The notes beneath the pieces are model-generated. The model made no database searches. It was not told the origin of the DNA and worked only from the letters and a program-made list of their open reading frames with translations. A program made the position numbers and the translations under genes. A DNA stretch of 64,000 nt, taken from contig CM042085.1 of NCBI GenBank assembly GCA_023512835.1, positions 35,728,324-35,792,323 on the forward strand, written 5' to 3'. Shown piece by piece: positions 14,086 to 52,312 of the stretch. Source of the stretch: Taxillus chinensis. Its lineage: Eukaryota > Streptophyta > Magnoliopsida > Santalales > Loranthaceae. Numbering within the stretch: position 1 is the stretch's first letter; the number at the start of each line of letters is the position of its first letter.

Positions 14086-14090
14086 ACTAT

Positions 14091-14731: not shown

Positions 14732-14734
14732 ATA

Positions 14735-24582: not shown

Positions 24583-24584
24583 GC

Positions 24585-28048: not shown

Positions 28049-28933
28049 AGGTCGGCATCCAATTATTACCTTGATGGTCCCATTCTATATAAGCGAAATC
28101 ATGACATGGTGTTACTGCGGTGTGTGGTAAAAGAAGAGTCGAAATAGATAATGAAAGAAGTGCACGAAGGAGAATGCAGTTCACATGAAAATGGACATCC
28201 ATTAACAAGGCAAATTATGCGAATGGGCTATTATTGGGCCACCATAGAAAAGGATTGCATTGAATATGTGCGCAAATGCCTCAAGTGTCAAATTTATGGC
28301 GATAAAATCCAAGTACCGCCATCCAGACTGCATATGATGGTTTCCCCGTGGCCGTTTTCACTTTGGGGCATCGATGTGATCGGACCGATATCTACGAAAG
28401 CATCCAATGGTCATCGTTTCATTTTGGTGGCCATCGATTACTTTACCAAGTGGGTAGAAGCAGCGTCATATGCTAATGTCACGCAAGCTGTGGTGCTCAA
28501 ATTTCTGCGGAGCAACATTATATGTCGATATGGGCTTCCTGAGCAGATCATAACAGACAATGCCGCCAATCTAAACAGTCAGATGATGGGTAAGTTGTGC
28601 GAAACATACAAAATCCAACACCGCAACTCGACTCCTTATCGCCCCAAAATGAATGGAGCAGTTGAAGTGGCCAATAAGAACATCAAGAACATTCTCAAAA
28701 AGATGACTGAGACATACAAAGATTGGCATGAGAAGCTATCATATGCTTTGCATGCTTATTGTACCTCAGTGCGAACATCAACTGGGGCAACTCCGTTTTC
28801 TTTGGTCTATGGCATGGAAGCAGTTCTACCTATCGAAGTGGAGATACCTTCCCTCCGAGTACTCAAGGATACTTAGCTAGAAGAAGCAAAATGGGCCCAA
28901 AGTCGTTATGAGAAGTTGAACTTAATCGAAGGC
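28049..28933 (+). pseudogene. D integrase, interrupted by element G
   Basis: The frame continues with a TAG at 28145-28147 and then MKEVHEGECSSHENGH and CLKCQIYGD (zinc-binding HHCC). The core has Asp in GIDVIGPI (about 28367), Asp in ITDNAANLNSQ (about 28550) and Glu in EVANKNIKNI (about 28665), so the three acidic residues are kept. A TAG lies at 28874-28876, and the reading (KLNLIEG) breaks at 28933 where G inserts. The C-terminal part is at 41981-42262. Confidence 0.93.
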
Positions 28934-29329
28934 TGTTGGATCAAGCCCAGAATTTGGATAATGCTGATAAAGCCCTATGTAATTTGATTTGAGACCTTTG
29001 TTGTTTTATCGTAAGTCAGTACAGAAGATATGACCTTCATCCAGATTTACACTCGTGTGAGCAAAGCTAAGGACAGGATACATAATCCTGATCTAGGTGA
29101 GAATGAGTGTCGTCAAAAACTTGGTATATAACCAAGTCTTTGTCTCATACGGATCAAGGATCATTCGTGCGGATTAAGAACCTAAAAGCTACGGACTAAG
29201 AAATCCGCACTTAATACTTCAGTGGACTAAGTCTAAAAGATGCGGAGTAAGAATCTTAGCTTACAAAGTCGCACAGAGTAAGAGAGTCAACACGAGTTAA
29301 AAAGATAAGTCTTCCACTCAACCGGACTA

Positions 29330-29720
29330 AAGCACAGAAGACACGGAGTAAGGAATCCGAGTCTTCCATACATGCGGAGTAAGGAAGTACTTCTACGGAA
29401 TAAGGACTTGAGTCTTTATTAGATGCGGAGTAAGGAAGTTAGATGCGGAATAAAGAAGCTAGATGCGGAGTAAGGAATCCGAACCACTCACTCATGCGGA
29501 GTACGGATGTGCTGATACGGAGTAAGCCATCCATTCCTTTAACTCATGCGGAATAAGGAAACTAGTTGCAGAGTAAGCACTCCGACCTTCTCTTCATACG
29601 GAGTAAGGAAACGCTTACTCGGAATAAGGATTCCAGCACCAAATTGATACGGAGTAAGCAATCAGTATTACGAAGTAAGGATCCGAGCTTAATTTAAGCA
29701 CGGTGTACGGAACCTTACAC
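29330..29720 (+). repeat. CGGAGTAAGG motif array in G U3
   Basis: A 10-bp core, CGGAGTAAGG or close variants (CGGAATAAGG, CGGAGTACGG), recurs roughly 15 times at irregular 15-40 bp spacing, usually after ATG or ATA. The 3' LTR has fewer copies (41040-41335). As a U3 array upstream of the TATA box it may hold factor-binding sites. Confidence 0.85.
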
Positions 29721-30016
29721 CGGATTCAAGAAGACGTTACTTCAACTTATCTCTTCGTGATCAAAGTCATCAGCTCGCTGTTTCCCGATGTAAGACAAAC
29801 TTGTTGTGAACCTAAAGCATCTTACACGTGGATCATCTGCATATGTGGACACAACTTTAACTACACTTGGGAACTTACTAAGACTCTTATGCGTTGTAAA
29901 CCCAAGATCTTGAAGACCACATCCACGACAATTAATGCAGAGAGATTTCCGAGAGACAGTAAATGGGCACAATATCCAGAACAATAAGTTCCGAGGTTGT
30001 CTTTTGAGGATGTCAC

Positions 30017-30024
30017 TATAAATA
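30017..30024 (+). promoter_or_regulatory. TATA box of G 5' LTR
   Basis: TATAAATA lies at 30017-30024, after the U3 array and about 340 bp before the end of the LTR. The same octamer is in the 3' LTR at about 41639-41646. Confidence 0.75.
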
Positions 30025-30355
30025 GCAACACTTGTATATTTATAAATGTGTACTTTTGTGAAAACAGATAGGAGCGTGCATGTACTAAAGCTCATAGAGA
30101 TCTAAGAGGCTAGTGTATGTGTACTTGTAAACAAAGCATTAAGAGTTGTTAAGTAGGTCTAAAAGCTTTCAAGCTTTAGACTGCTTTCATTTTGTTGTAC
30201 TTATCATACTGATAATAAAATAAAATACTTCCACTATCTGGTTATCTTCTGTATTGTTTCTATCTCTTAACCAGATAAGTGTTGTGCTAAAGAGTTAGAA
30301 AAGAGCTTCGATAAGAGCCTATTAACCCCCCTCTAGGCTCCAAGGGACCAACAAG

Positions 30356-30373
30356 TGGTATCAGAGCAAGTTC
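30356..30373 (+). promoter_or_regulatory. G primer-binding site
   Basis: TGGTATCAGAGCAAG starts two bases after the LTR and matches the initiator Met tRNA end used by most plant Ty1/copia elements. Confidence 0.92.
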
Positions 30374-30414
30374 TATTTGTTCTAAGTAGAGATCCCACTC
30401 TTTCACTCTTACCA

Positions 30415-32715
30415 ATGGCCGAAGAAAGCAGCATGCTATTCAACACTCGCCTTAACTCCGGAGGTGCACAAGAGCCCCTTCCAAATCGAAGCAGCAGTGA
30501 AAATGTCGATCCACCTTAACCTGCTACTGCCGTTGCTTCACAACCACGGAGTTCTGGCTTCTCTCTGACAAAGCCACCCAAATTCACACTTGAGCTTTTC
30601 TCCCAGTGGAAAGCTCGTATGAGAATGTTCATGGTCTGCCATGATCGTCTCATGTGGCCATGTCTTCATCAGGAGATACCCACTCCGATGACTATCGGAG
30701 AACATGGAGTCAGAAGACCAAAGACTGATGCTGAACTCACCAATGATGAAAGAGCCTGGCAGTGTGCTAACGAAAAGGCTCTGGCATATGTTACATCGTC
30801 TTTGGATTTCGAAGCTTTCACGGACGTCCATGGCTGCACGATAGCGAAAGCTGTCTGGGATAAACTGACAATCCTCTATGAGGGAAGTTAGTCCCAAATG
30901 CAGAACGTTATCTGTACTCTCAGGCAGAACTTTGAGAGTTTCAATCACAAACCAGGCGAATCACTCGAGAGCATCTATCGGAGATTCGGCAAGCTCATCC
31001 TTGAGCTGAAAACTGTCAAGGAACATTATTCTCAATCTCAGATCAATGACAAGTTCTTTCGCTCCTTGCCGGATCGCTACTACTCCAAACAACTCCAGAT
31101 GCAATCCGACAAGAACTGGTAGTATGTTCCCCTTGAAGAACTATATGGAGAGCTACGGACTCACGAGGTCAGGTTTAAATACTATGACTAGGACGAGAAA
31201 ATAGCTCGGAAAGAAAAGGAGGTAGCTCTCAAAGCTACAAAATGTCTTAGCATACTAAGGAATGATGATACGGACGAGTCCGAGAATTCTGACTCTGACG
31301 AGGAGGAGGAAATAGCTCTCCTCGTCAAATCCTTTGAGCGATTCCTACGGAAAAGTAGAAAAGGATTCAGGAGAGGCTCTTCATCATCTTTCCGAAGGAA
31401 GGAGCGACCGGAGTCCAGTTCCCAGGAATGCTACAACTGTGGGAAAACTGGTCACTGGGCCAAGGACTGCAAATCCAAATCTAAAATGGCCGAGAAAAGT
31501 GACAAGGTAACTCCTCGCCGCTCCACCTCAGACAACAGCAAGAACAAGAGGAAGGCATTCGTCACAAAATACGTCAATGGCTCGGAAGAAGAGGAGGAAT
31601 CCTCGGATGATGAGCCAACTCCCAAGCCGAATGTCTGCCTCATAGCAAATTCTGAGGAACCTTCGATCTCTGAGCTCATGAGTCAATTAGAGTCTCTTAT
31701 TATTGAACATGATCATGAAAAGAATGAGAGACTACTAATTATATAAATGTACAAAGATATGGAAAGTCAGAATAAACGTCTTGAGATTACTGTTGCTAGA
31801 TTAGAAAAGGATATAACTGACTTCAGGAGTAAAGAGGCTTGGTATCATGATCTAAGAGCTAAAAATCACCTACTAAATACCAACCTAACTGGCCTAAAAG
31901 TTATTGTGAAGCGACTCGAAAATGAACTGGAACAGGAAAAGGAAATAAATCGTAAGTCGCTAAAATCCGGAGAAATAGCCTCTACCTTTAGGACTAATCC
32001 TGACAACATCCGACTCAAACCTGGCCTAGGTTCCGAACCATCGACCTCCACACAGACTACTGAGTGTCCTCCGGATTTCATTCCGAAACTAACCAACCTT
32101 TATCCTGTTAGTACGTCTAAACTGTTGGATGGTTTCATTTCAGGTGGCACCATAGTCTATGACTGTGGAACTGAGGCTGTTACTGCAGTTCTCGAAGCAG
32201 TAGCACCCGTAACTATTAATGAAGGGAAGGCTACTGCAGTTCAAGCCAAAACTGTAGCACCCAAAAAGAAAGGAAAGGCTAAGGCTGACGTATCTAGGGT
32301 TAAGAGCGCATCACCCAAATGCAATGGACTAGGCCATAGAGAACAGAGTAGAACGTCTGTAAAATCTAAGAGACTTGTATCCCCTGTTTGTACTCTGCAT
32401 TATAGTGTCTGTTCCATCTGTAGGGAAATAGGTCATTATCACTATGAATGTTGGAGTTTATCTGATAATTGGCTTTGTAATCAAGTACGTATTAATAAAG
32501 ATCAGTTCATAAAAAAGGCTTCTTCGAGCAAAACAAAATCTAAATCTCAGAGGAGTGTCTCTCCCAAGAAAACCCAAGTAAAAGAAGCAGCTGAAACTAA
32601 CAAATTAAAGTCAACTTGGAAAGCTAAAATTCCTAGCAAAGTTAAATCCGGAAATGATGACACTACTGTTGTTCTTTCTAACCGCCCGAAACAAGTTAGG
32701 GCACCAAAAGTGTAA
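30415..32715 (+). pseudogene. G gag
   Basis: Start ATG at 30415 (MAEESSMLFNTRL). The frame runs without shift to 32715, through stops at 30517, 30889, 31120, 31189 and 31744. It has the copia gag core (PPKFTLELFSQWKARM, WQCANEKALAYV, LESIYRRFGKLI), an acidic stretch (DESENSDSDEEEE) and the zinc knuckle CYNCGKTGHWAKDC (31429-31470). After it follow a coiled-coil-like part (31747-31950) and a basic, Lys/Ser-rich tail with a second Cys/His cluster (CTLHYSVCSICREIGHYHYEC, about 32390-32452). The long tail after the knuckle fits SIRE-type gag. Each stop can be explained by one C-to-T change on either strand. Confidence 0.9.
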
Positions 32716-34560
32716 ACTGTTGTCTTTTAGGAGCATCTCTGGAATGCATTGCCGGATCACTTGAAGTTAAAGATCAATCAAAGCAAGTGGATCCTTGATA
32801 GTGGATGCTCCGGACATATGATGGGTGATCAGACTCTACTTGTTGAAGTTAATGACAAACGAGGTCCATCCGTTTCATATGGTGACAACAGCAAAGGTAA
32901 GACTCTCGGGTATGGCACTTTAACCAACGGCTGTGTATCAATCACTAGAGTTGCACTAGTCGAAGGTTTGAAGCATAATTTGCTAAGTGTCAGTAATTTA
33001 TGTGACAAAGGATTTACTATTTCCTTTATGTCCAACACCTGCACAGTAAGGAAAAACTTATCCGGAGATGTTAAGTTATCCGAATCAAGAGATGAGGACA
33101 TATACTCTGTGGTCTTAAGAAATAATTCTTCTGACCCTGTATGCTTCCTCACTACAGCATCAGATGAAGATAGTTGGCTATGGCACAAGCGATGCGCACA
33201 TTTAAACTTTAAGACCTTGTCTAAGTTAGCGTCGCTTGATCTGGTCACTGGTCTACCTAAACACAAATACTCCAGAGACACTCTCTGTCGAGAATGCCAA
33301 CTTGGCAAACAGACCAAACATAGCTTTAAGAGCAAATCAGTCAATTCAATAACTGCTCCTCTACAACTTCTTCACATGGACCTCTGTGGTCCCATTTCTG
33401 TTTCTTCCCTAGCTGATGCGACATATACCCTTGTGGTTATCGATGATTTCACCAGGTACACATGGGTGATGTTTCTGAAAGCTAAGGATCAAACTTTTGA
33501 GCATCTTGTAGATCTTTTCAACTGGATAAGCAACTCACAAGGACTGAGCATTAAGTTTATCAGGAGTGATCATGGTACAGAATTTGATTTTTCAGATATG
33601 AGATCATATTGTTCTGAACAGGGCATTCAACATGACTTCTCTGTGCCCAGAACTCCACAGCAAAATGGAGTAGCTGAGTGCAAAAATCGCACTTTAGTCG
33701 AGGCTGGCAAATCCATGTTAGCAGGGGCAATGCTTCCTCTCAGTCTATGGGCTAAAGCTGTGTCCACTGCCTGCTATGTTTAGAACAGAACTCTAATAAA
33801 TAAACTTACCATGAAAACACCCTATGAGATGTGGAGAGGATGAAAGCCCTCAATTTCACATTTCAGAGCTTTTGGGTGTACTTGCTATATATTGAACAAC
33901 GGCAAAGAACCCCAGAATAAATTTGAACCAAAATCTGATGATGGGATTTTTGTCGGGTACTCATTACATAGCAAGGCTTATCGAGTCTTCAATAGAAAAC
34001 TTTTTAAAGTTGAAGAATCTATCCATGTGACCTTTGATGAAGCTAACCTAGATTGGTCAAAAGTTGCTTCTTCAAGTTCTAATGCACAGGTTCAGGACAA
34101 CAACATCGATTATTCAAAGTTTATGAATGTTCCTATTACACATAGTGATTTACCACGCGGCACCAGTGAAGGACGAAGCAATGATGTTGATGATGCTACG
34201 GATGATTCAGACTCGGGACTACCATTAAACTCTGGACATATTCTTACGGATATCCAACATTCCGGAGTACCTTCAAGTCCGTCTGGACCAGTTAACACTG
34301 AAAGCAACAGTGTCGAAGAACCACTTAGTTCTTCCGAACCTGCTAATACGGAAACATCTAGTCCGGAAGAAGCTCAACCAGCAGATATATCTGAACCACC
34401 TAATCTGGCAGAGCTTCAAATTATACAAGATCAACCATCACATGCACAGAATTACAGGTGGACTCGAAACTACCCTTCAGAACAAGTGATTGGTGATCTT
34501 ACTGTTGGTGTAAAAACAAGAGCGGCCACCTCCAACATCTGTCTTTACACATGTTTTCTA
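32716..34560 (+). pseudogene. G protease and integrase
   Basis: In the same frame as gag, the protease shows WILDSGCSGHMMGD (catalytic Asp 32797-32799). The GAG-pre-integrase zinc region follows (WLWHKRCAHLNF, CRECQLGKQTKHSF). The integrase core has Asp in HMDLCGPIS, Asp in RSDHGTEF and Glu in the ECKNRTLVEAG stretch. Stops at 32728, 33781 and 33841 interrupt it. The C-terminal part (FGCTCYILNNGKEP, FVGYSLHSKAYRVFN) and the acidic Ser/Pro-rich linker (34080-34420) are open. Confidence 0.92.
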
Positions 34561-36099
34561 TCACAGGTAGAACCAAAAGTGGTAGATGATGCTCTTCAAG
34601 ATTCAAACTGGATAGAAGCCATGCAAGAAGAGCTGAATCAATTTAAAAGAAATGATGTGTGGACACTAGTACCAAGGCCTAACTCTCAACAAGTCATTGG
34701 TATTAGATGGGTGTTTCGGAACAAACTTGATACGGATGGAACAGTAATCCGGAACAAAGCCAGACCGGTAGCCAAAGGATATCGTGAAGAAGAAGGAATA
34801 GACTATGACGAGACCTTTGCTCCAGTAGCAAGACTTGAGGCAATCAGAATGTTGTTGGCATATGCTTCTTATGAAAACTTCGTAGTTTATCAAATGGACG
34901 TCGAAAGCGCATTTCTAAATAGAGATCTTCAAGAGGAGGTGTACGTTGAACAACCTCCCGACTTCATAGAACCCAAGGCTGGACATCTAGTCTACAAGCT
35001 ATGGAAAGCCTTGTATGGGTTGAAGCAAGTTCCAAGAGCCTAGTACGACACACTGTCAGAATTCCTACTTTCTCACAACTTCCAAAAAGGGAAGATAGAC
35101 ACCACTTTATTTCTACGAAAAGAGAAAGGACATACTCTGATCGTACAGATATATGTGGATGATATCATTTTTGGATCATCAAATCCGAAGCTTTGTGAAG
35201 AGTTTGCAAAGTTGATGACTGGCAAGTTTGAGATGAGTATGATGGGAGAACTGTCCTACTTCCTTGGAATAGAAGTCAAATAATTAAAGGAAGGGATCTT
35301 CATTAACCAAGCTAAATATACACGTGATCTTATTAAGAAATTTGGTATGGAAGGTTCATCTCCCGTCAAGACTCCCATGCCAGTCAGTGCCAAGTTAGAT
35401 CCTGATGTGGATGGCAAATCAGTAAATGTGACTGAATACAGAGGGATGATAGGATCCTTGCTGTATCTTACAGCAAGTCACCCGGACATTATGTTTGCAA
35501 CCTGCATCTGTGCATGATATCAGGCAAATCCCAAGGAGTCATATATGCTTCATGTCAAATGGATATTAAGGTATCTCAAAGGGACTGTGAATTTGGGGCT
35601 CTGGTACCCAAAGGAGTCCAACTTCACCTTATCCGGATATTCTGATGCTGACTTTGCTGGGTGTCGCATCGACAGGAAAAGCACAAGTGGTACGTGTCAG
35701 TTTCTTGGAAATAGATTAATTTCATGGTTCAGTAAGAAGCAGAATTCTGTATCAACCTCTACTACTGAGGCAGAATATATAGCAACTGGAAGTTGCTGTG
35801 CACAGCTACTTTGGATGCAGAGTCAACTTACTGACTACAGTTTCAATATGACATCTATTCCACTCTACTGCGACAACACTAGTGCAATTGCTATAAGCAA
35901 CAATCCTGTCATGTACCCAAAGACCAAGCACATTGAGGTAAGGTATCACTTCATTCGTGACCATGCTCTCAGAAAGCACATATCACTGGAACATGTTGCT
36001 ACTGAAGATCAACTGGCAGACATACTTACAAAGCCCCTACCTGATGCAAGATTCTCTGAACTACTCTTCCGATTAGGTATGATCGACTTCTCTGCATAG
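34561..36099 (+). pseudogene. G reverse transcriptase and RNase H
   Basis: The frame continues with DSNWIEAMQEELNQF, WVFRNKLDTDG, the catalytic YVDDIIFGS (35152-35163 for YVDD), and the copia RNase H (YSDADFAGCRIDRKSTSG, STTEAEYIATG, YCDNTSAIAIS, HIEVRYHFIRDHAL). It ends at a TAG before position 36100 (IDFSA). Stops at 35041, 35281 and 35515 are of the TGG to TAG, CAA to TAA and CGA to TGA type. Catalytic acidic residues are all present. Confidence 0.94.
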
Positions 36100-37784
36100 C
36101 TTCACATTTAAACTATCCATCAGTATATTTTCTTTCAGAACTTGCATTGTGCTCTTATTGAAAGTAGAAAACACATACTAAACTTAGTGTTGATCATACT
36201 TACTGCCTAACATGCTTTATGCTCTGATATAAATGTCTAACTTCATAATTGGAGGATGCTTGCGTTTCCCGACTAAAGTCGTTTAAGCTAACATAATTAA
36301 AACGGATATAAATAACTTCTTTGGGATTTCATGATTCTAATCTCCACTCATCACCACATGACGAATGCTGTTTCATTTTGATTGCTCTATTAACTTGTAT
36401 GGTTGAAGAAATGAAATGGGTTAGCTCGGAATGCTTGGTGATGGTACTCACAATCGCAGTCTACCTAGCTCGTGAAGTGTAGTTTCCTAATGGATAGACA
36501 GTGTTGTTTTAAGATCTAAATTTTTTTAAACAGGTAATGCCATCGAGAGGATCGCATGATCTACGGGGGAGAAAATGCTTTATTCATTATCCAAGTAATA
36601 CCCCCTATATATGTCTCGTGACCTCTTTCCTGGCTGTTTATCTAAGGGGGAGTCTATCACTGAGAGGATCGCATGATCTAAGGGGGAGCAAGTAATAATC
36701 CCCTAATATGTCTCGGATGCTCCTTCCTCTAAACTATCACTTCCGGCTCTACCTGGACATGCATTGTTGAATCAGATTTGTGGCATGCAAGGATGTTTTT
36801 CTTCCTTCAACCGTGCATTTTAATTGGTTAATCATTTGCTTGCTTTCGACATGTGTTCATTTATTCCGTTTCACTCATGAATCCTAAGTTGGACAAATCA
36901 TATGATTTTTAATTATCTTAGCTACGTTATTCAGCAGGACGGTTTCGCTATGTTGACCAATATGAACTTGTGTGTTTCTTATCTGACATATGCCTTGATT
37001 CAGTAACTATGATCATTCTCTTATTTGTATGTGTCTTTTACATTTCCTTTCAATGCATTAAGTTCTGTTTCTCATTAGTTCGGATTCAGTTCCTCTACAA
37101 TAGACTATATCCTCATATCCGTACTAATTCCTACCTGTTAAGCTTGTGTTCTTTTAGTTTATTTTTGTGAAGCTACAGGTACAGATTCTCTTTGCACCTC
37201 TATCGATATATCTTGTCTGTAGTCTCGAATTTGAAGTGTTGTGGAACTTCTCTTCTCCTCGACTTCAAGACAGCAAAAGAATCTACTTTTCTCTTCAAAC
37301 ACTCTGTTTCTCCAAACACGATCTACTTTTCATCCGGATGATCTTATCTCGGATATCATTTACTCCGGATGATTGTCGATTCATTCCTCCGGACTCTTGG
37401 AACTCTCAAATCACGACGAATCTTGTCTTATTATATATCGCATGCTTTTGAGGAGGAATAATGATGGATCATTAAATGCATGTCTCGGGATGCACACACT
37501 TCCCAAAGAAGGCAAACAGCTGTTATCATTCCCTGGTCATGCTGTCTCCACGTCATCTCTATATCCGGAGGCGTGCCACTCTCAAGACTCATGACATCAG
37601 CATGTCAAGCGGTTCACTACTCCACTCGCTTAATCCCTAGATCCGGTGACATTTACGGACTCGGTCTTATATATCCTGGATATTCCTGCGCAGCGCGAGT
37701 TTTACATCTTCCAAATCCCTAAAACCCTCGTCGCGCCTTCAATCCCCAAGACCTCACCTCCTTCTCCTCTCAATCTTTCCCTCA
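36100..37784 (+). other. G spacer after pol, with three purine tracts and a possible internal promoter
   Basis: No coding signal in 1.7 kb. GAGAGGATCGCATGATCTA occurs at 36544-36562 and again at 36660-36678, each followed by a purine tract (CGGGGGAGAAAA; AGGGGGAGCAAG). A third tract, CTAAGGGGGAG, is at about 36642-36652. These resemble polypurine tracts. Near the right end CTTATATATCC (37667-37677) is TATA-like and TCCCTAAAACCCTCG (37717-37731) resembles a plant leader with a telo-box. These lie about 110 and 60 bp before the extra gene. Confidence 0.65.
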
Positions 37785-40507
37785 ATAGCACCCAAAACTT
37801 CCCTTTTCGGCATTAACCCCGGCCATCTGGTTGATTGGCGTGTTATCTCCGATCCTCCAGCTTGGTTTCTGGAACTTCACCCACTTCGGAAGCCTCTCAC
37901 ATCCTAAACCTGGTCTCCAATCCTGTTGACCTTCTTATTGAAGACATCCGTTCTATCAACGGATCCGCTGCACCACCGACTCCATTATCTCCTACGTCTG
38001 CGGTGAATCCATCTTGATCACCCCTGACGTTCTCCGTGCCGCTCTCAACCTCCCTCCTCATGATCTTCAGCGCCCGGATGCTAAGACAATGGCTATTTCC
38101 ATGGGTTGCTCCTATAAGGGGAAGGAGTACAAAATAGTCATTTCAAGGTTGCTACTGGTGTATAACGACCATATTGAGTTGCTGCCTCCTAGCTCATACC
38201 ACTGCTCTGGATTCTATCCCGTACGACCTTCTATTGGCTATGTACGACATCTTTGAGCATCTCCCGATGGACTGGGGGACTTTCTTGTTCCAACTGCTGA
38301 AGAACGGTCCAAAGAACCACTCTTTTGGGCAGATACTCAGCACTGTCTTCAGGCATCTACATCCGGACCATTTTGCCCGATATGATGCCATTCCTTTCCC
38401 TCAGGCTTATTATCTTCGCCATCTTTCGCCTGATGGAAACATGACAGCTCGCCGTCCCTCGGCTGCTCTCCATTTTCTTCCTGCCTCGGAACAACAAGGC
38501 AGCTCTGTTGGTGACCCCTCCGATAGTCGTGCCCCCGAAGTTAGCTCTGCTCACCAGTCCTCCCGGATTCGGTCCGTTGCTGCTCCCTCCATCTCTCGAG
38601 GCTCCCAGCACAACATCCGTGCCAACCCTTCTGAGGTTACGGGACCATCTCAGCCCAGTTTACCTACGGTTGTTTCCCCAACACCATCTGCTGCGGATGT
38701 CCCCACTCCCTCCACTTCCGCTGTTGCTGCCGCCGTTGATACTGCCGTTGCCACTGCCATCGCTGATGTCCCGGAATCTCTTCCGGAAGTTCCCTTGCCT
38801 CCTCTCCCTCAACCCCAAGCCTACCTAGACCATCTCTCCGCTGACACACTAACGGACCTATGGTTCCGTTTTAGCCTCGCCTGCACAGCCTCCATCCCCG
38901 ACGACGACCTCAAGGTGTTTTATGGCAAACACACCCGCACCCCGGAGGATATGATCATCTAGAATCTGGATCATGGCTTTCTTACGCTTGCCCACATTCC
39001 AGAGGTTCCCTTTGCTGTCTCCTCCGGACAAGCCCATGACGCACGGGTTCACTCCCCTGCTAAGGCTCGGTCCGCCTCTCCTGCAGCCGCCATCCCAGTT
39101 GTTGACCTGTCTGGTCATAGTGGCTTTGCTGCTCTGGAAGCCTCTAATGCTCCGGATGCCCCCTCTGCTGCTGCTGCTGACGACCACTCCACTCCTGCCG
39201 ACTCCTCTGCCCAGCGCACACCTACACCTATTCCTACCGGGGAGTCCTCCAAAGCTCTAGAGTTGGTGCTTGGACGTGCGTCATTTGGCACGGTTCACTC
39301 CAATGTTATACTGTTTGCTCAACTCGACCGTCACGCCCAAGCTCAAATCGCCCAAATCTTTGCCATCGCCGCTAAGGTTGATGCTCTTGGTGCCCAACTC
39401 CCCTTCACCTTAACCGACTCTTCCACCTCCATCGAGCAAAAGATGGACCTTGTTACCTCGTCCGTCCATTTATTGTCCACTTCTTTTGCTGACTTGGCTC
39501 ACACGATGGCTCGTCCTCCTCCCGTCCCTCGCCGATCTGCCCAACCGGGGGAGAAAGTGTCATCTGATCCTTCTGCACCTTCCTCCTCTCGTGCTGAAAA
39601 GAAACGGACTGCATCCTCACTGCTTCCGGGAGTTACCATCCCCAAACGCAGCCGCTTCTCTCAGCCCAGCTCCTCTAGTGCAGCTCCTCCTTCGACCACT
39701 CCATCTTCCGCGGGTGACACCTTCCTCCCATTATACGCGGATCTTGATCCCCTTGATGAGGATGGAAGTGTTTTTAATGCTATGACCAGGTATGCCGCGT
39801 CAAATGCTGAGAGAAGATGTCTACTTGAGTTGTACCCCTTCTCTCCCCAAGACATAAGCACTATTCACTCTAAGACGGGTTTGCTCACCACAAAAGATAT
39901 AGACAACTTCTCTCGAGCAGTTAAGATGGAGATGAGGCTGTTTTCGTCCCTATACAAGGATAGACACATGTTTGACATATTGCCGTGTTGGAATGAAGGG
40001 TATCTTCCAGACTTAGCCGATATTCAGACCTTCATAAACGGAACTGCTGAGGATAGCACTCCCTAGAAGACTCTACAATCCGTCCTCATTCCATACCAGG
40101 TCATGACACCGCACTTCATGCTGGTTGTCTTTATGATTTCGTCCAAGCAGTTGATTCTAATTGATTCCCATCAAATTGTGGAGCAAAATGTTAGAAAGAA
40201 TCAATTTGAGCCTCTGCGTATTCATCTGACGGAAGCCATAAAGCAATCGGGCCTTTATGAAGAAAGAGGCCTACCTCCGTTGGGTCCAACTAAAAAGCTG
40301 AAGGCGACGGTCCGGGGTAAGAAGTTAGTGCCACAACAGCCTGATGGAGATAGCTGTGGAGCTTTTGTCTGTCTCTTTATCAAATCTATTGTCAAGGTGG
40401 ATAAAAACTAGAACAGCATCCAAGCCTACACCATGGAGCAGACAATAGAGCTTAGAGAGAAGGTTGCAATGATGATCTTCAAGTATAGTAAGCCTTATGT
40501 ACCTTAA
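37785..40507 (+). pseudogene. G extra gene: plant transposon-protein-like N-terminus, linker, Ulp1-like protease
   Basis: The gene lies where env-like ORFs sit in SIRE elements, but I see no signal peptide or membrane segment. The probable start context is ATA-GCA at 37785, perhaps a lost ATG. The first part (LVDWRVISDPPAWFLEL, ITPDVLRAALNLP, SRLLLVYNDHIELLP, DLLLAMYDIFEHLPMDWG) changes frame near 37890, 38015 and 38200; it resembles the 'putative plant transposon protein' family from memory. From 38174 to 40507 one frame is kept: a Pro/Ala/Ser-rich linker (about 38450-39250), a region with basic clusters, and a protease-like end. In-frame TAG stops are at 38960, 40064 and 40409. Gene E (55925-57091) has the same layout. 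Confidence 0.75.
40067..40507 (+). other. Ulp1/SUMO-protease-like (C48) domain of the G extra gene
   Basis: Visible residues are His in TPHFMLVVF (40112-40114), Asp in LILIDSHQ (40163-40165), Gln in PQQPDGDSCG (40337-40339) and Cys in DSCGAFVC (40355-40357). The His to Asp distance is 17 residues and Gln to Cys is 6, the same as I recall for yeast Ulp1 (514, 531, 574, 580). The Asp to Cys distance is 64, longer than in Ulp1. Such enzymes remove SUMO or related tags in the nucleus. The domain is split from the linker by the stop at 40064 and ended early by the stop at 40409, after which REKVAMMIFKYSKPYVP closes it. Confidence 0.78.
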
Positions 40508-40636
40508 TGCAAATTTTGTATAAAGGATATATTGTACTGTGTACTGATCAATGAAAATGGAGTGATTTCTTTTTTGTATGTTATCTCCTTGCATTGCTTA
40601 CCAAATCAGATTACAAAGGGTTTGGGCATATCCATA

Positions 40637-40648
40637 ATTGGGGGAGAT
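40637..40648 (+). promoter_or_regulatory. G polypurine tract
   Basis: AATTGGGGGAGA ends one base before the 3' LTR (TGTTGGATC). It is the plus-strand primer position expected for a copia element. Confidence 0.88.
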
Positions 40649-41975
40649 TGTTGGATCAAGCCCAGAATTTGGATAATGCTGATAAAGCCCTATGTAATTT
40701 GATCTGAGACCTTTGTTGTTTTATCTTAAGTCAGTACAGAAGATATGACCTTCATCCGGATTTACACTCGTGTGAGCAAAGCTAAGGACAGGATACATAA
40801 TCCTGATCTAGGTAAGAATGAGTGTCGTCAAACACTTGGTATATAACCAAGTCTTTGTCTCATACGGATCAAGAATCATTCGTACGGATTTAGAACCTAA
40901 AAGCTACGGACTAAGAAATCCACACTTAATACTTCAATGGACTAAGTCTAAAAGATGCGAAGTAAGAATCTTAGCCTATAAAGTTGCACGGAGTTAAAAA
41001 GATAAGTCTTCCACTCAACCAGACTAAAACACAGAAGACACGGAGTAAGGAATCCGAGTCTTCCATACATGCGGAGTAAGGAAGCTAGATGCGAAGTAAG
41101 GAATCCGAACCACTCATGCGGAGTAAGGATGTGCTCATACGGAGTAAGCCATCCGTTCCTTTAAGTCATGCGGAATAAGGAAACTAGTTACGGAGTAAGC
41201 ACTCCGACCTTCTCTTCATACGGAGTAAGGAAGCGCTTACTCGGAACAAGGATTCCAGCACCAAATTGATACGGAGTAAACAATCAATACTACGGAGTAA
41301 GGATGCGAGCTTAATTTAAGCACGGAGTAAGGAACCTTACACCGGATTCAAGAATACACTACTTCAACTTATCTCTTCGTGATCAAAGTCATTAGCTCGC
41401 TGTTTCCCGATGTAAGACAAACTTGTTGAGAACCTAAAGCATCTTACACGTGGATCATCCGGATATGTAGACACAACTTTAACTACACTTGGGAACTTAC
41501 TAAGACTCTCATGCGTTGCAAACCCAAGATCTTGAAGACCACATCCGCAGCAATTAATGCAGAGAGATTTCCGAGAGACAGTAAATGGGCACAATATCCG
41601 GAACAACAAGTTCCGAGGTTGTCTCTTGAGGATGTCACTATAAATAGCAACACTTGTATATTTATAAATGTGTACTTTTGTGAAAACAAATAGGAGCGTG
41701 CATGTACTAAAGCTCATAGAGATCTAAGAGGCTAGTGTATGTGTACTTGTAAACAGAGTGTTAAGAGTTGTTAAGTAGGTCTAAAAGCTTTCAAGCTTTA
41801 GACTGCTTTCATTTTGTTGTACTTATGATACTGATAATAAAACAAAATATTTCCACTATCTGGTTATCTTCCATATTGTTTCTATCTCTTAACCAGATAA
41901 GTGTTGTGCTAAAGAGTTAGAAAAGAGCTTCGATAAGAGCCTATTCACCCCCCTCTAGGCTCCAAGGGACTAACA
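40649..41975 (+). repeat. G 3' LTR
   Basis: 1327-bp copy of 28934-30353, ending GGGACTAACA, followed by the target duplication AAGGC. The CGGAGTAAGG array is about 90 bp shorter than in the 5' copy. Confidence 0.97.
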
Positions 41976-41980
41976 AAGGC

Positions 41981-43430: not shown

Positions 43431-44297
43431 CAGTTTAAGCCTATCGTTCTGTGGGCTTTTCATTTTCAATTCAAGCCTACCGTTGCTGTGAGCTTTTCAT
43501 TTTTCAGTTCTAGCCTATCATTGTTGTGGGCTTTCCATCTTCAGTTCAAGCCTATCGTTGCTGTGGGCTTTCCATTTTTCAGTTCAAGCATATCGTTGTT
43601 GTAGGCTTTTCATTTTTTAGTTCTACCCTATCATTGCTGTGGGCTTTTCATTTTCAGTTCAAGCCTATCGTTGTTGTGGGCTTTCCATTTTTCAGTTCAT
43701 GCTTATCGTTGCTGTGGGCTTTTCATTTTCATTCCAAGTCTATCGTTGCTGTGGCCTTTTCATCTTCAGTTCAAGCCTATCGTTGTTGTGGGCTTTCCAT
43801 TTTTCAGTTCAAGCCTATCGTCGTTGTGGGCTTTTCATTTTTCAGTTCAAGCCTATCGTTGTGTGGGCTTTTCATTTTTCAGTTCAAGCCTATCATTGTT
43901 GTGGGCTTTTCATTTTCAATCCAAGTTTATCGCTGCTGTAGGCTTTCTTTTTCATCTTCAGTTCAAGCCTATCGTTGCTGTGGGCTTTCCATTTTTCAGT
44001 TCAAGCCTATCGTTGTTGTGGCCTTTTCATTTTCAGTTCAAGCCTATCATTGCTGTGGACTTTTCATTTTTCAGTTCAAGCCTATCGTTACTGTGGGCTT
44101 TCCATTTTTCAGTTCAAGCCTATCGTTGTTGTGGGCTTTCCATTTTTCAGTTCAAGCCTATCGTTGCTAGTGGGCTTTCCCTTTTCAGTTCAAGCCTATC
44201 GTTGTTGTGGGCTTTCCATTTTTCAGTTCAAGCCTATCGTTGCTGTGGGCTTTCCCTTTTCAGTTCAAGCCTATTACATTGTTGTAGGCTTTCAATC
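43431..44297 (+). repeat. Tandem repeat of 37-38 bp, about 23 copies, in D
   Basis: The unit is CAGTTCAAGCCTATCGTTG then TTGTGGGCTTTCCATTTTT. I count 23 occurrences of the GGCTTT core from 43450 to 44290. Copies vary at a few positions (GTTGCTG/GTTGTTG, TTTTCA/TTTCCA) and there are a few length changes. It lies just before the polypurine tract of D. Ogre/Tat elements are known to carry tandem arrays at this place that can seed satellite DNA. The long frames over it in all three phases are only a product of the repeat. Confidence 0.95.
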
Positions 44298-44522: not shown

Positions 44523-47129
44523 TGTTGGACCCCATTTTGTCCGAGTTGGACATACTAACCCCATGTTTTTCTATATACCATTATGTCCATGCCCTATACC
44601 TTGTTGAACAGGTCCATAAATGGATACACTTACACGAACAGGGAAGCCCAAAATTGATAGCCTCTGTTGCAAGCCCCTAAAGTGTCCCAAGATCAATGCC
44701 AGGTGATAAAGGATGAAATTTAGAGACTAACGTACTTGACCGAGCTCAATTCCGATGAAAAACAAAGAAGTTATGGCCAAAACAACTTTCGTGTAAAAGG
44801 GTAATTAAAAAAAAACCTTGACTCGTAGACTCAAAGCCTCGAAGACTCGAAGCCTCGAAGCCCTGAAGCCTCGAAGACTCGCAGCCTCGAAGCCTCAAAG
44901 ACTCGAAGCTTCGAAGTCGGTAAGCCTTCGACCCTCCGACCAGCCGACACTTCGACCCATGGATCTTCGACCCTTCGCCCCTTTGATCTTCGACCCTTGA
45001 CCTTCGAGGAACGATTCTTTGACCCTGCCGACACTACGACCTGCTGACACTTCGACCCATTAACCATTGACCTTCGACCCTTAGCCCTTCGACCCGTTGA
45101 CTGTTAACCTTCGACCTGCCGACACTTCGACCCATTGACTGTTGACCTTCGACCCGTTGACTGTTGACCTTCGACCCATTGACCGTTGACCTTCGACCCA
45201 CCGAAACTTAGACCCTGCCGACACTCCGACCCTTTGACTTCTGACCTTCGCTGTATGGCCTCTCTCGCTGGCTCTCTCGCTAATTGCTCACAGGACACGT
45301 TTGTTATGAGCTGGCCATCTGACAAAGCCGTTTTTCAACGCCTGTCGGTCACATGTCCTAATAAAAACTTAAAAAGGACAATCACGAGCTGCATACGTTG
45401 CTATTCCTTCCGACAAAAGGTAGAATCTGAAAATCAAAAATACTGCATCAATAATACAGCATTAAATGCTGCAATCAATGCAATACAGCCATGGCCTTTA
45501 AATCAAGTCTTTTGTCCACGGGAAGACCCAGGAAAAGACCCAGAGATTACGCCCAAAAAAAAACCCCTTTCTGATTTGCTGCCATTCTCTCTCAAATTCA
45601 CCCAACTACTGCATTAAAAAAAACAACTTTCTGCTATCCTGCAATCAAAAATCGCCCATTCTTTCTAAATCCCTTTTCCCCAATATCTCGTTACAGCTAT
45701 CTTTTTCCCAGCAAAGAAAAAAAAACAACTCCAGTTTCAGCCCTCTCTTTCTATGTTTTCATCACAAAAAACACCAATTCGTTTTCATTCCCTATTCCTT
45801 ACACCCACTCTCCTCAATTCCAGCCACAAAAAAATCTTAATCCCAAAAAATATACATCATCCTCGTTTCCCACGTTTTCTACCCAAAACCCAGAAATTTT
45901 TTTTGCTTTTCATCTTCTCTCATCTCCACACACCACTGCAATCTCCAAATCAAAATCCCAACTGATTTTTGCCATTTGCGCTATTGGAACTCGGTGATTT
46001 GGTAATTCGAGTAGGCGACTATCGGCGTGGACAGGATTCACACAGCAGTCCGGTGTTCGAAGCTCTAAAGTCGGTTCTATAATCCTAGCTGATTTCTGTC
46101 ATTTATTATTTCTTAGCTTATTTATCTTTATATTTGATGTAATTCTTAGTCTTTTCCTATATATGTTTTTTCTTTTTTCAGCTGTCGTTATGTGTTGTAT
46201 TTTCCTTGTGTTTTCCTTTTTATGTTGTTGACATCTGTTGTATTTTTCTTGTATTTCTTTTTTTTTTCTGTATATATAGTATGTTGTAATATGTAAAGAA
46301 TAGTAAGAAAAAAGAGAGAGCAAAGAGAGGAATGAAAACGAAAAGGAGAAAAAAAGAAGAAAAAGAGAGTGGGTGGTCTTGTTTTATATGTTATTTTTGT
46401 ATGCCACAATCACACAATTCACGTTTTGTTTTGATATGCATGTATTTTGATATGGTTAATTCTTAAAAAAAAAAAGATCAAACAAAAAAAACAAAACATT
46501 TTCCACAAAATGTTTTCCAAAACATTTTCAATAATAGGTTTTCAAAAATGTCTCCTTAAAAAAACAAACAAACAAAAAAAAAAAAAAACGTTTTGCAATA
46601 AAATGTTTTCAAAATGTTTTCAATAAAATGTTTTAATAAAATGTTTTCCAAAATGTCTTCCAAACAAACAAAAGACAAAACAAAGCAAAACAAAACAAAA
46701 CAAAACCGTAGGATTTCATTTTCCACCTCAAATAAAAAAGCAAAAAAACAAAATTTTTAGGATTCCCTTTAGAGATTTAGGGTAAATCAATTTTAACCAT
46801 AACTTTGACAAATAACTTAGTTAAATAAAAAGCATAGACTTTTTAGGAAAACAATAGTGCCTCAACTAGATCGTGGTAGTGCAAATAAATAGAAAATCTC
46901 CTCCTCCGAAAATAGATACCAAAAGGGCGCTGTAGGGGTGCTAATCCTTCCATACACGTAACCAACTCCCGAACCCTTCTCTGATAACGCAGACCACACC
47001 TTTAAACTACTCAAAGTATAGGGTATCCAACTGTACCCCAAAAACAGTTGGTGGAGACTCTAAATTTTCTCACCATTGGTTTAGTTTGAGCTCAGCCCAA
47101 ACGGGCCCGGACGAAAACCAGTGATGACA
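44523..47129 (+). repeat. D 3' LTR
   Basis: 2607 bp from TGTTGGACCCC to GTGATGACA, followed by the target duplication ACTAT (47130-47134). It has the CTCGAAG/TTCGACCC array at 44825-45215 and A-rich stretches at 46460-46720. Confidence 0.96.
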
Positions 47130-47134
47130 ACTAT

Positions 47135-47670: not shown

Positions 47671-49504
47671 TGATAGTGATCATCTGGACCACTATTTTAG
47701 GGCCATTTTGGGTGTGTATTGACATGAATTATACATCTTTGTCACTCGAAAATGTTTATATTTTCTATCTGACACCCTAACCACCAATTGAAGTTTCCCC
47801 TTGGAGTTTTTGGCTTGTTCTTTGTATTATTTATATTAAACTCAGGGATTCCTCCATGGAAGCAAGAAATTGAGGTTAACAGCAGTTACACAACAAAAGG
47901 CGGCCAGGAATGGATTAAAATAGAATTTCACCCGACCAATATGATTGGTGCACATTCGGATGACACATACCACAAATGAAGCTGATCGGGTGAAGAATTC
48001 TCCTGGTCGGGTGAAGAATATTCACCCGACCACTTGATATGAAGATGTAATCCGTCGATTTAAACCTTTTCCAACAACTTTTCCTTCTGGTCGGGTGAGA
48101 ATTGAAGATGGTCGGGTGAAGCTTCTCTTCACCCGACCAAGTGTGATAAAGCTATAAACCATCGATTCAAGTCGTATTGGACATGTTCGTCTTTTGGTCG
48201 GGTTAACTTTGAAGCTGGTCGGGTGAAGGTTTCATTCACCCGACCAAACTGATTCGGTCACATGCAACTGATTCAAGTATTTGGAGACTACTTTGACTTC
48301 TGGACGGGTGAGTTTTGAAGATGATCGGGTGAAGTTTTCGTTCACCTGACCAAACTGTTTCTGTGCCAGATTTGCATTGATCCCTAGCTTAAATGCACTA
48401 TTTCCAAGTCTGCAGCACGGCATCCCACACCCAACATTTTTAATGAGACAGTTGCACAAGTTGCAGTGTTTTACACCTGTAGGGCTGTGATTAAATTTAG
48501 CTATGAGGATGCATTTTCATTTTTACTGTTGCCCTAATTTCGGGAGGCTATATAAGCTGAGTTTTTGGAAGAGATGGGGTTGCAAAATTGAGAGAAAAAT
48601 ACAAAAAAATCATAATTACCATTTGAGGGCAGATTTCAGGGAGTTTTTGGATGATTGGAGCATCTGCAGCATTCTGGAACACTACTAGCTGGAGCAAGTC
48701 ATCAGGGAGGTCATTTTCTACCTCCAAGCAGCCACAATTACCCTCCTTTCCTTTCCTTCATGTCGTACTTCTTTGTTGTATCTTTTAAAACCAGTATGTT
48801 AGCTTAGAGCCTCTTGATTGGGGTTAGGATGAAATTTGATATAATGTGTTAATTGGAATAATCTGCAAATTCGTATTCTCTATTTTCTACTTATTGAAAG
48901 TCTTGATTACTTGTATGGAATGATATTGGCCATGTTGTTCTGTATTTTAGGTAATTATATGATGGATTATAAGATAAAATATAATTACCAGAAACTCAAG
49001 ATGATCATACTAGAAATTACATAATATGTGAAAACCAGTGTAAACCTAGGTTACTAAATCAAGAGTGGGTGTGATGCTAGCTCTAGATTAAACAATCCAG
49101 TACTTAATGGGTCACCTGCCTCCATGTTTGGGTGTACACAGAGCTATTGTACTTGAAAGAGACTAGTTCTTGCATTATGATTAAGTAATAATTGGAAAAT
49201 AGAAAGAAATATGAACTCTATAGATTATGTTACTATTGGGAGAAAATACATCAAATGAAGTCCTAACCCGAGTCTACTTTCCAATAAACAGAAACTCCAC
49301 ATCAGATCACTTTCTTTACAATTTGAATAATGTAATTTATTTATTTATTTTTAAGCTGAAACTAAAATAAAAACCAAAATTAATTTAAGTTATCTGAGAA
49401 AAAAATAAGATTTTTATCCCATCACCTTCCCTAGGGTTCGATAACCGGACTTAATTGTCCACTGTATTACTTGCACGATTTTGTACACTTGCAAATCAAT
49501 AACA
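47671..49504 (+). repeat. E 5' LTR
   Basis: 1834 bp, nearly the same length as the 3' LTR (1835). In the first 330 bp I count about eight substitutions, mostly transitions. U3 carries the TGGTCGGGTGAA palindromes; TATATAA at 48549-48555 is a TATA box. No indel larger than a few bases separates the two LTRs. Confidence 0.96.
47927..48352 (+). promoter_or_regulatory. TGGTCGGGTGAA / TTCACCCGACCA palindrome array in E U3
   Basis: Inverted pairs with arms TGGTCGGGTGAA and TTCACCCGACCA and loops of 5-7 bases lie at 48004-48032, 48109-48139 and 48216-48246, with a worn pair near 48321-48352 and single arms at 47927, 48088 and 48195. Spacing of the pairs is near 105 bp. The 3' LTR keeps the same set at about 58735-59085. 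The arrangement 200 bp or more upstream of the TATA box suggests protein-binding or hairpin elements. Confidence 0.88.
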
Positions 49505-49510
49505 AGTTTT

Positions 49511-49527
49511 TGGCGCCGTTGCTGGGA
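49511..49527 (+). promoter_or_regulatory. E primer-binding site (tRNA-Asp type)
   Basis: TGGCGCCGTTGCTGGGA begins six bases after the LTR. This is the Asp tRNA type primer site well known from Athila elements. Confidence 0.92.
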
Positions 49528-49662
49528 AGGCATCGATAGGATTGAAATTCTAGAATATATCATATTCTTTTTACCTTTTCTGTCACTTGTTTATATTATT
49601 GTGTTGTATATATATTGTGTTGTTTTGGTGGATGGTTCGTTAGCCTGTGTAGGAACAGGTGA

Positions 49663-51058
49663 ATGAACAGTCCATCCGAAGAAGAATTTCTATGCTTTGA
49701 TCCAGAACCAGACTGTACCTTCAGAACACATCTTCGTGAGCTAAGAAGAACATTTGAGCCAGGAGAACAAGAAGCACTTAGACCAAACATGGCCACCAGA
49801 CCTGACATGGAACAGGGAGATGAGGCACACCGACCGGTCAGAGATTATGTCACTCCTGATGCCAAACACATCAGAAATCTCATACAACAACCAGAAATTA
49901 GAGCCAACTTTGATTTTCCACCACAGGTGATACATTTGGTGGTACAGAACAGCTTTGGTGGACTTCCATTTGAAAATCCTTATCAGCACCTATCAAGGTT
50001 CAACCAAATATGCAGAACTATAAGAAGACAAGGAGTGCTTGAAGAAGCCATCAAGCTGGAATTATTCCCTTGGTCTCTTAAGGATAATGCTCTGTCATGG
50101 TTTACCTCCTTACCTAATCAACATTTTGCCAATTGGGGTGACTATGCACAAGAGTTCCTGGGTCAATACTTTCCTCTTGGAAAGATTTCTAAACTGAGAA
50201 ATGATATTACTGCATTCTGCCCAATTTTTCGGGAGAAACCATTGGATAAGCTTGAGAGAGATACAAGGGATTGCAGAGGAAGTGTCCAAATCATGGACTA
50301 CACAACTGGCTACTAATTGAATTATTCTTTGGAGCTCTGAACCAAGAGGATCAGACCCTGCTCAATGCTGCTGCAGGGGGAGCCCTAATCTAGAAGAGCC
50401 CATCTGAGGCAGCAGTCATCATAGAGGACATGGCCAAGAGCTACTCGCAATGGCCTAGCAGAAGATGTAACACCGAAAAAGCAGCAGGGATACATAAGGT
50501 TGATGAAACAACCCGCCTACATGCTAAAATTGAAGCCCTAACCAAACAAGTGGAGAAGTTGACAACCAAACCCATAGCTAAAGCCCACACAACTTGCTAA
50601 GAGTGTGGGGGAGAACATGCACCTTCAAACTGCCCATTGAGCACATATGAAGAGGGTACATTGAGTGTTTCCAATGATGCTGAAGAACAGACCAATTATG
50701 TAGGCGGCAATCAAAATAAGCAGGCCTACAACCCTTATTCGAACACCTACAACCCAGGATGGAGAGATCATTCGAATTTCAGATATGGACAGCAAGGTCA
50801 AAACAGCAATAACGATCAGCAGAGACCGGTCCAATATCAGACAGCTCAATACCAGAACAATAACCAACAGTACAACAAAAGAGCTCAGTTTCCAAACAGA
50901 AATACAGATTTCAGACCATCGGGTAGTCGACACCAAGAGCAGAAAGCCAGTTGGCAGACTGCAATTGAGAAACTCGCTAATGCAACAAATGGGAAAATTC
51001 AGGAATATCTACTAAGATCGATGAGCGACTTGATCGAGTTGAGAATCAGAATAAACGA
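49663..51058 (+). pseudogene. E gag
   Basis: The frame 49663-50316 (MNSPSEEEFLCFDPE) has the Athila gag core: IKLELFPWSLKDNALSWF, FLGQYFPLGKISKLRND. A frame change near 50270 and stops follow. The zinc-binding box ECGGEHAPSNC is readable at 50601-50633, preceded by a stop. Downstream, 50637-51000 is Asn/Gln/Tyr-rich (NPYSNTYNPGW, QNNNQQYNKRAQFPN), as usual between the knuckle and the protease in this lineage. Confidence 0.85.
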
Positions 51059-52312
51059 TTGGAAACTCAGATTGCTCAAATTGCTGATGCTCTGACTCAA
51101 CGAGCACCTGGAGAGTTACCCAGCAAACTTGAAACAAATCCCAGGGAATATTGCAAAGCTGTTACATTGAGAAATAAAAGAGAACTACAAGAACAGCCAC
51201 CAACTGAGAGGAAAATTGCTGAACCATTCAAGGAAGCTGAAGTTACACCAAAGCTAGAGAGTCACGTTAAGGACCAGCAGCAAGAGAAGAAAGAACTCAG
51301 AAAATACACTCCACCTCTTCCATTTCCTCAGAGGCTCATCAAACAGAAGAAGGAGGAGCAGTACAGAAAATTTATGGACATAATCAACCAATTGAAGGTG
51401 ACTATTCCATTTGTTCAAGCACTAGCTCAGATGCCCTCCTACACTAAATTTTTAAAGGATTTCATAACTAACAAAAAGATGCTAGAGGAATATGCAACTG
51501 TGGCCCTCACTGAAATTTGTAGTGCCATTATTCAAAAGAAACTGCCTCCTAAGCTTGGAGACCTAGGCAATTTTTCCATTCCCTGCACGATTGGCCAATT
51601 GTCCTTTGACAATGCACTATGTGATTTGGGTGCTAGTGTGAGCTTAATTCCATTCTCCATGTGCAAATGACTTGGGCTCGGAGATGTGCAGCCCACCTCC
51701 ATCACCTTGCAGTTGGCTGATAAGTCCATTAAGCATCCAGTGGGCATATTGGAGAATGCCCCTTTGCAAGTACAGAATATGATTATTCCAATTGACTTGA
51801 TTGCATTGGATATGGATGAGGCAGGTGCCATGCCATTAATTTTGGGGAGACCATTTTTAGCCACAACTGGTGCACTTATTGATGTCAAAGAGGGTAAATT
51901 GACTCTCAACATAGGGGATGAAAAGATTGAATTCAATGTCTTCAAGAGCTTGAAGCATCCCCAGCAAATAAAGGAGAGTTATAGGATTGATGCAATCAAT
52001 CCTGTGGTGACTGAGCAGACATTACAGTTTCAGGATCCTTTAGCTATGTGTCTCGCAGTGGCTACTTCCACTGACTATGAAATTGAAGAAGTGGTTACAG
52101 AGGCTAAGGCCTTAGCAGCAGCACCTGTGGCCCCATTCACCCAAAAAAGACTTCAATTTGAAGAGCTTGGCCCTAGGAAGCCACTGCCTCTACCATCCGT
52201 TGAACAAGCACCAAAGTTAGAGCTAAAGACATTGCCAGCTCACTTAAAATATGCATATCTAGGTGCAGGATCAGACTTACTAGTAATTGTAGTAGTTGAA
52301 CTTGAAGGGTAA
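51059..52312 (+). pseudogene. E aspartic protease and linker
   Basis: The frame carries PPLPFPQRLIKQKKEEQYRK and then the protease with IPCTIGQLSFDNALCDLGAS (catalytic Asp 51623-51625). A TGA at 51668-51670 stops it, of the CGA type. The same frame goes on with VQNMIIPIDLIALDMDE, PLILGRPFLATTGALIDV and a linker ending near 52312. DLGAS in place of DTGAS is usual for Athila. Confidence 0.88.

Follow-up and report, generated by a model that had tools for sequence, protein, structure and literature searches.

This study revealed that a SIRE-type Ty1/copia retrotransposon of Taxillus chinensis carries, behind its pol gene, a gene that ends in a Ulp1/SENP-type cysteine protease domain. The element spans positions 28934-41975 of a 64,000-nucleotide stretch of DNA (C2:35728324-35792323; the window hereafter), and the gene stands between pol and the 3' long terminal repeat (LTR), at the place of the envelope-like (env) open reading frames (ORFs). 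The features of the locus are collected in Table 1. A preliminary description of this DNA had claimed such an arrangement, and we saw it in many copies. The env position assigned there to the gene was correct; the idea of a one-off capture replacing an env-like ORF was not, and the gene is rather the regular env-position ORF of the family.

In the window copy, the catalytic His, Asp, Gln and Cys share one frame and one uninterrupted open piece (40067-40411). The spacings were recomputed (His-Asp 17, Gln-Cys 6) and are, as had been claimed, those of yeast Ulp1. The piece 40067-40408 matched Peptidase_C48 (PF02902) at E 1.6e-4 and 22.0 bits, above the Pfam cut-off of 20.7, and the other pieces of the env region (37942-38253, 38138-38959, 38963-40063 and 40412-40504) matched no Pfam family at E<=10. 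This copy had already been described as non-functional, and rightly so: the frame 38174-40507 contains three internal TAG stops (38960, 40064 and 40409) before its TAA. An additional break, a frame change, lies before 38256, where two overlapping open pieces (37942-38256 and 38138-38962) stand in different frames.

A chance motif was rejected as the explanation of this signature, because the residues are conserved in other copies and families. The pattern of the Cys motif occurs twice in the window (at 40331, and at 56921 in an Athila-type element) versus 0.17 times per random window, the His-Asp pattern once versus 0.37 times, and both together in one open frame in none of 30 first-order random windows; this test is a weak one, as the patterns were composed with the answer in view, and the conservation is the stronger evidence.

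A six-frame search of the 520.9-Mb assembly (264 contigs) returned at least 150 matches to the gene, including that of the window, with 150 of 6769 candidates scored, all at E<=7.6e-58 and 80-100% identity. Fifty loci were read: the first 30 with flanks of 1.5 kb on either side, and the following 20 with 4.7 kb of upstream sequence. In 28 of the former and 16 of the latter (44/50), the longest match to the LTR lay downstream of the protease piece. Eight of the 20 longer loci displayed the full order of RNase H end, post-pol region, N-terminal part, linker, protease piece and 3' LTR; in the other 12, either part of the upstream sequence was absent, had been rearranged or fell beyond the stretch read, or the LTR match was located elsewhere. 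The protease gene is a regular part of the SIRE element.

With regard to the protein family, two natural copies exceeded the C48 cut-off with 24.1 (L006) and 25.9 bits (L002), and all rows of our 14-row and nine-row alignments matched C48 at E<=1. A mixed profile of four SIRE and five other domains (four Athila-type, one unplaced; 22-26% identical to the first SIRE row) found human SENP1 in the PDB (E 8.9e-10; positions 13-222 of 256 covered), all four catalytic residues being aligned, and reached yeast Ulp1 only at E 0.54. An earlier SIRE profile had placed chance matches to viral nucleoproteins (E 0.06) above the C48 proteases (E 0.11), and the piece 40067-40408 alone had Chlamydia Dub1 as its top PDB match (E 0.013-0.017), with SENP1 at E about 1. 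Protein searches with this piece and with piece 38963-40063 (region 252-367) returned no relative.

A structure model built from 14 near-identical SIRE rows was useless, with a predicted local distance difference test score (pLDDT) of 41. AlphaFold2 with a natural SIRE copy and 13 rows including divergent ones (18-30% identical to the first) gave a pLDDT of 83.7 and a predicted template modelling score of 0.84. The top Foldseek matches of this model were SENP2, SENP1 and Ulp1 (E 3.6e-9 and following). The best chains in VIA-align were SENP3 (17.9), SENP2 (17.7), SENP5 (17.7), SENP1 (17.6), Ulp1 (17.2) and, tying with these, the NEDD8 protease (17.2); the bacterial effectors of the clan scored about 12-15.5, and pS273R of African swine fever virus 13.7. 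The domain is thus predicted to be a complete papain-like protease fold of the CE clan. SUMO proteases, with a NEDD8 protease tied, are its nearest folds, and the fold does not name the substrate within the ubiquitin-like group. We consider the identification as a Ulp1/SENP-type protease practically certain, and the ancestral enzyme is predicted, with good confidence, to have been catalytically competent. The preliminary description had named two outcomes that would speak against it, the absence of a C48 match by profile or structure and a lack of related copies with the gene between pol and the 3' LTR; neither occurred, since C48 matches exist at both levels and related copies in the same genome have the pol-gene-LTR order.

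The domain has also been maintained by selection. Among 70 copies (ranks 1-50 of the genome matches and 20 more, every fourth from rank 71; five with frame gaps), His was kept in 70, Asp in 67, Gln in 63 and Cys in 64, with all four present in 55; a stop inside the protease piece was found in 16. The inner branches of their tree carry 85 silent, 49 replacing and no stop changes, and the outer branches 287, 345 and 18, respectively; the codon of the catalytic His shows no replacing versus four silent changes. Based on a neutral ratio of 1.98, derived from the mutation spectrum of LTR starts (exact in 34 of the 50 loci), omega of the protease piece is 0.29 on inner and 0.61 on outer branches (binomial test 1.7e-12, changes treated as independent); ranking by protein similarity lowers these values, the inner branches probably being less exposed to it than the outer ones. 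Purifying selection, for which a test had been suggested, was found. Omega was also calculated by region for 35 of the 50 loci, the other 15 being rearranged or otherwise unsuited upstream. On inner branches, the end of the N-terminal part has a value of 0.28, the two halves of the linker 0.27 and 0.56, the stretch just before the protease piece 0.27 (with two inner-branch stops), the protease piece itself 0.29 and the short tail 0.37. As these values are low across most regions, selection acted on the whole gene and not on the catalytic part alone. The nine-row alignment has 23 invariant columns, those of His, Asp and Gln included, and Cys is kept except in L084.

A homologous gene of the same layout occupies the env position of Athila-type gypsy elements of the same genome. 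The member in the window lies in an element with gag and RNase H matches in Pfam and an integrase zinc-binding match below the cut-off, which we tentatively assign to Athila, partly on what we take to be its primer-binding site type (tRNA-Asp) and the look of its gag. Between its LTR copies, 62 of 1833 compared sites are different, a Kimura two-parameter distance (K2P) of 0.035. The ORF 56141-57088 resembles the SIRE gene at both ends and in the same order: in single comparisons, the SIRE sequence of the window matched it at E 3e-6 (N-terminal, piece 38138-38959) and 5e-8 (C-terminal), and a natural SIRE copy at E 3e-5 and 1e-8. This ORF holds the Gln-Cys half only, scoring 11.9 bits, below the C48 cut-off. 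Several close genomic relatives match its residues 1-236, or most of them, and then residues 228-316 about 1 kb further on, and the window copy has therefore lost about 1 kb that held His and Asp. Within the missing part, six relatives have His-Phe-15 residues-Asp (His-17-Asp); in some of them there are stops, or the Cys or a residue beside it is altered.

The protease domain is also present in additional families that share 34-50% identity with the Athila query. In five of six further stretches (L083-L087), the His-Asp and Gln-Cys/Ser regions were found in the expected frame, with a stop between them in L086 and Ser in place of Cys in L084; L088 contains the first half only and is interrupted by a stop at the Gln motif. 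In three of the four members checked, the pol sequence (RNase H/integrase) lying upstream is 68-80% identical to that of the window's Athila element. The fourth, L085 (C1:30465513-30467513, with L090 upstream), has the gene with the protease domain in an 802-residue open frame, and 1.4 kb of sequence read about 1 kb upstream of it contained no pol. A protein search with the Athila ORF gave one match, the 223-residue P0001, which has no Pfam match; when viral contigs were scanned, neither the SIRE protease piece nor a SIRE pol piece nor P0001 gave a match. A tree of 12 protease domains leaves the kinship of the SIRE and Athila genes and the direction of any transfer open, because long branches come together and the forks between the groups are weakly supported or open.

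Table 1. Features of the SIRE-type and Athila-type elements in the window
Feature	Position	Strand	Remarks
Target-site duplication AAGGC	28929-28933		3' copy 41976-41980
5' LTR, SIRE-type element	28934-30353	+	TG...CA ends
Junction of 5' LTR and primer-binding site, AGTGG-TATCAGAGC (tRNA-Met)	30354-30367	+	Sirevirus type; motif as in the accessible text of PMC2829016
gag pieces, interrupted	30520-32712	+	Retrotran_gag_2, CCHC zinc knuckle (Pfam)
pol pieces, interrupted	32731-36099	+	Pre-integrase, rve integrase, RVT_2 reverse transcriptase (Pfam)
Three GGGGGAG polypurine-tract-like copies	36565-36688	+	Ahead of env-position gene
TCCGGA/CGG boxes, then TATATA (37668)	37333-37673	+	Directly upstream of env-position gene; promoter-like
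N-terminal part of env-position gene	37785-38962	+	More than one frame in window copy; internal TAG 38960
Ser/Pro/Ala-rich linker, possible coiled coil (by eye), start of protease domain (about 39752 on)	38963-40066	+	TAG end
Catalytic part, Peptidase_C48 domain	40067-40411	+	His 40112, Asp 40163, Gln 40337, Cys 40355; TAG end
C-terminal tail	40412-40507	+	TAA end
Terminal polypurine tract GGGGGAGAT	40640-40648	+	Adjoins 3' LTR
3' LTR, SIRE-type element	40649-41975	+	
Athila-type gypsy element	47671-60234	+	Target-site duplication TTCGT; primer-binding site TGGCGCCG at 49511
env-position homologue of Athila element	55925-57091	+	In-frame stop 56138; Gln and Cys motif 56921

The SIRE element that carries the gene is itself surrounded by an outer gypsy element, with pol pieces up to 28873 and LTR copies at 22020-24585 and 44523-47132. 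The copia-type gag, zinc knuckle, pre-integrase, integrase and RVT_2 were all matched by Pfam; the pol piece 35518-36096 had no Pfam match and is taken to be the RNase H end from its position and a motif. The two LTRs measure about 1.4 and 1.3 kb and show 59 differences over 1328 compared sites (K2P 0.046). Plant sequences accumulate 0.65-1.3e-8 substitutions per site per year, and the element is accordingly about 1.8-3.5 million years old. The Sirevirus junction CA-A(T/G)TGG-TATCAGAGC is present as CA-AGTGG-TATCAGAGC. By eye and simple counts, we also found that the terminal polypurine tract is followed by an AT/TG attachment site and that the LTR has CGG-type repeats and, about 20 bases from its end, a C-rich stretch. 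All four are marks of Sireviruses in the accessible text of PMC2829016, which also describes boxes 5' of env. The GGGGGAG sequence occurs at 36565, 36646, 36682 and 39547 and in the terminal tract at 40640, with none extra downstream of the gene. In the published ENV-containing Sireviruses, as far as the accessible account goes, most extra polypurine tracts follow ENV, whereas here they stand before and inside the gene. At least two upstream copies are found in 8/8 aligned copies, including that of the window, and the TATATA is kept at the same place behind the CGG boxes in the same 8/8, which suggests that the gene may have its own promoter.

These findings lead us to propose an anti-silencing role for the protease, to which we assign a probability of roughly one half. 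The protein, in which a low-complexity linker, possibly containing a coiled coil, joins an N-terminal part to a Ulp1/SENP-type cysteine protease at the C-terminal end, would be expressed from the promoter-like region with its CGG boxes and TATA. It would enter the nucleus, where the N-terminal part might bring the protease to the chromatin or the proteins of the element. There, the protease could strip SUMO off silencing or transcription factors, allowing the element to escape SUMO-dependent repression. Such a role would resemble that of the VANC genes of VANDAL transposons, some of which (KIU) have a Ulp1 domain. The window copy is no longer able to act in this way. More broadly, and somewhat tentatively, the "envelope-like" genes of SIRE and Athila in Taxillus chinensis may be one SUMO-type protease family, exchanged or independently recruited, and kept against SUMO-dependent silencing.

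Two other explanations accept the protease fold and are both unlikely. According to the first, the enzyme acts on proteins of its own element, such as Gag or the long env-position protein, by maturing them or by removing their SUMO or ubiquitin, and chromatin is not its target. The CE-clan proteases of adenovirus and African swine fever virus do mature their own capsids. However, pol already contains what we take to be a retroviral-type aspartic protease motif, LDSGCSGHM, in piece 32731-33783, and SUMO proteases outscore pS273R in the structure comparison. According to the second, the domain has retained its fold without catalysis and serves, for instance, to bind SUMO or a partner as a module within an envelope-like or movement protein. 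The similar constraint along most of the gene fits this explanation, as do the 15 of 70 SIRE copies that are without at least one of the four residues and the Ser of L084. Nevertheless, dead copies are expected to lose residues in this way. His, Asp and Gln are moreover invariant across families with only 22-26% identity to the first SIRE row, with Cys kept in all but L084, and the His codon has accepted silent changes alone.

It is very improbable that the gene is a passenger, that is, a Ulp1-bearing Mutator-like element (MULE) of the KIU type or a host Ulp1 gene that was inserted into or picked up by one element. Plant MULEs with Ulp1 genes are known (accessible parts of PMC13317346 and PMC2836005). 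The longest inverted repeat in 36050-40700 is 17 bp, so terminal inverted repeats (TIRs) are lacking; this was not counted against a passenger because Ulp1 MULEs are non-TIR. For the SIRE family, a nested Mutator-like transposon was rejected because the gene travels in the order pol-gene-LTR in other copies, eight of 20 being complete. In addition, no transposase family is among the Pfam matches of the env-region pieces, as a KIU-type MULE would have, the gene is under purifying selection, and its Athila homologue sits in the same slot. A classic envelope-like protein with an incidental C48 match is just as improbable and was rejected, fold and triad being those of a protease. In a simple 19-residue hydropathy scan (made without a dedicated signal-peptide or transmembrane program), a 758-residue open SIRE copy exceeded 1.6 only at the protease core strand beside the catalytic His. 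Our finding concerns one genome, and the protease reading need not hold for every plant, because a transmembrane env-like ORF has been reported for Athila of sunflower (PMC11728184, in its accessible part).

The retroelement domain differs from the known Ulp1/SENP proteases (PF02902; yeast Ulp1, human SENP1 and SENP2), to which it is about 11-17% identical in structural alignments. SENP1 has Trp after His, where the retroelement domains have Phe or Tyr, and, unlike in Ulp1/SENP, the domain stands behind the N-terminal part of a retroelement protein. The KIU Ulp1 genes belong to non-TIR Mutator-like transposons (VANDAL) of Arabidopsis; melon, rice and grapevine have comparable genes. As in SIRE, and going by published descriptions, a Ulp1 domain is found there in an extra gene of a plant transposon, but KIU elements are DNA transposons and SIRE is an LTR retrotransposon. 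Anti-silencing has been attributed to VANC in the accessible text of PMC13317346. Ginger1, whose transposase is related to gypsy integrases, also has a C-terminal Ulp1 domain (accessible part of PMC2836005); unlike SIRE, it is an animal DNA transposon with the domain fused to the transposase.

Ulp1 domains are thus already known in plant MULEs, Ginger and other DNA elements, according to the available text of the two papers just cited. The SIRE eORF-3'F and the env-like ORFs of Athila, Calypso and Cyclops share position, orientation and element lineages with the protease gene. ORFs of this type were termed envelope-like (PMC4093653), and a large survey described 19 SIRE eORF groups with little or no mutual similarity and doubted their function (PMC6317226); the accessible parts of both accounts make no mention of a protease. 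We found no report of a Ulp1-type gene in SIRE or Athila in the open-access literature; subscription papers or genome annotations could contain one. The available text of a review of additional ORFs (PMC7264820) lacks the terms Ulp1, C48, protease and SIRE, that of PMC11963269 lacks Ulp1 and protease, that of PMC11728184 lacks SUMO and protease, and that of a primary paper on VANC lacks Ulp1, SUMO and KIU.

The role of the genes behind pol in SIRE and Athila has been open since they were named envelope-like, and both lineages have long been suspected to be endogenous retroviruses. A function class can now be read, namely a conserved cysteine protease with a SUMO-protease fold, under selection and present in two superfamilies, and the question can therefore be tested with a single purified domain. 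The families are only about 25% identical and are recognisable by triad and fold, which suggests why sequence comparison may have missed the gene. The hydropathy scan hints that some env calls based on transmembrane segments may have picked up the protease core strand. Taken further, the finding suggests that SUMO may be a front line on which plant LTR retrotransposons and their hosts meet.

In this genome, C48 genes seem to form an abundant class of repeats, since all 150 scored places (of 4308 candidates) of a C48 profile search were above the cut-off. L094 and L095 represent a further class of Peptidase_C48 genes, and the part preceding the protease in L095 recalls, by eye, that of the SIRE and Athila genes. 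The top score of this search belongs to L093, a very divergent 1092-residue frame on the small contig C191, possibly a contaminant. Elsewhere in the window, a minisatellite of about 38-base units lies inside the outer gypsy element at 43431-44296 and is open in several frames (218 and 237 residues), and a short tandem array of TTCGACC-like units lies at 44929-45268. The region 3848-21147 contains nested copies that are 96-98% identical (4988-6780/12299-14086, 3848-4990/19367-20506 and 14086-14731/20499-21147), with tRNA-Met-type binding sites at 6783 and 14735. Two regions at 1619-3840 and 9293-11547, with pol ORFs that are gypsy-like by eye, are 66% identical to each other.
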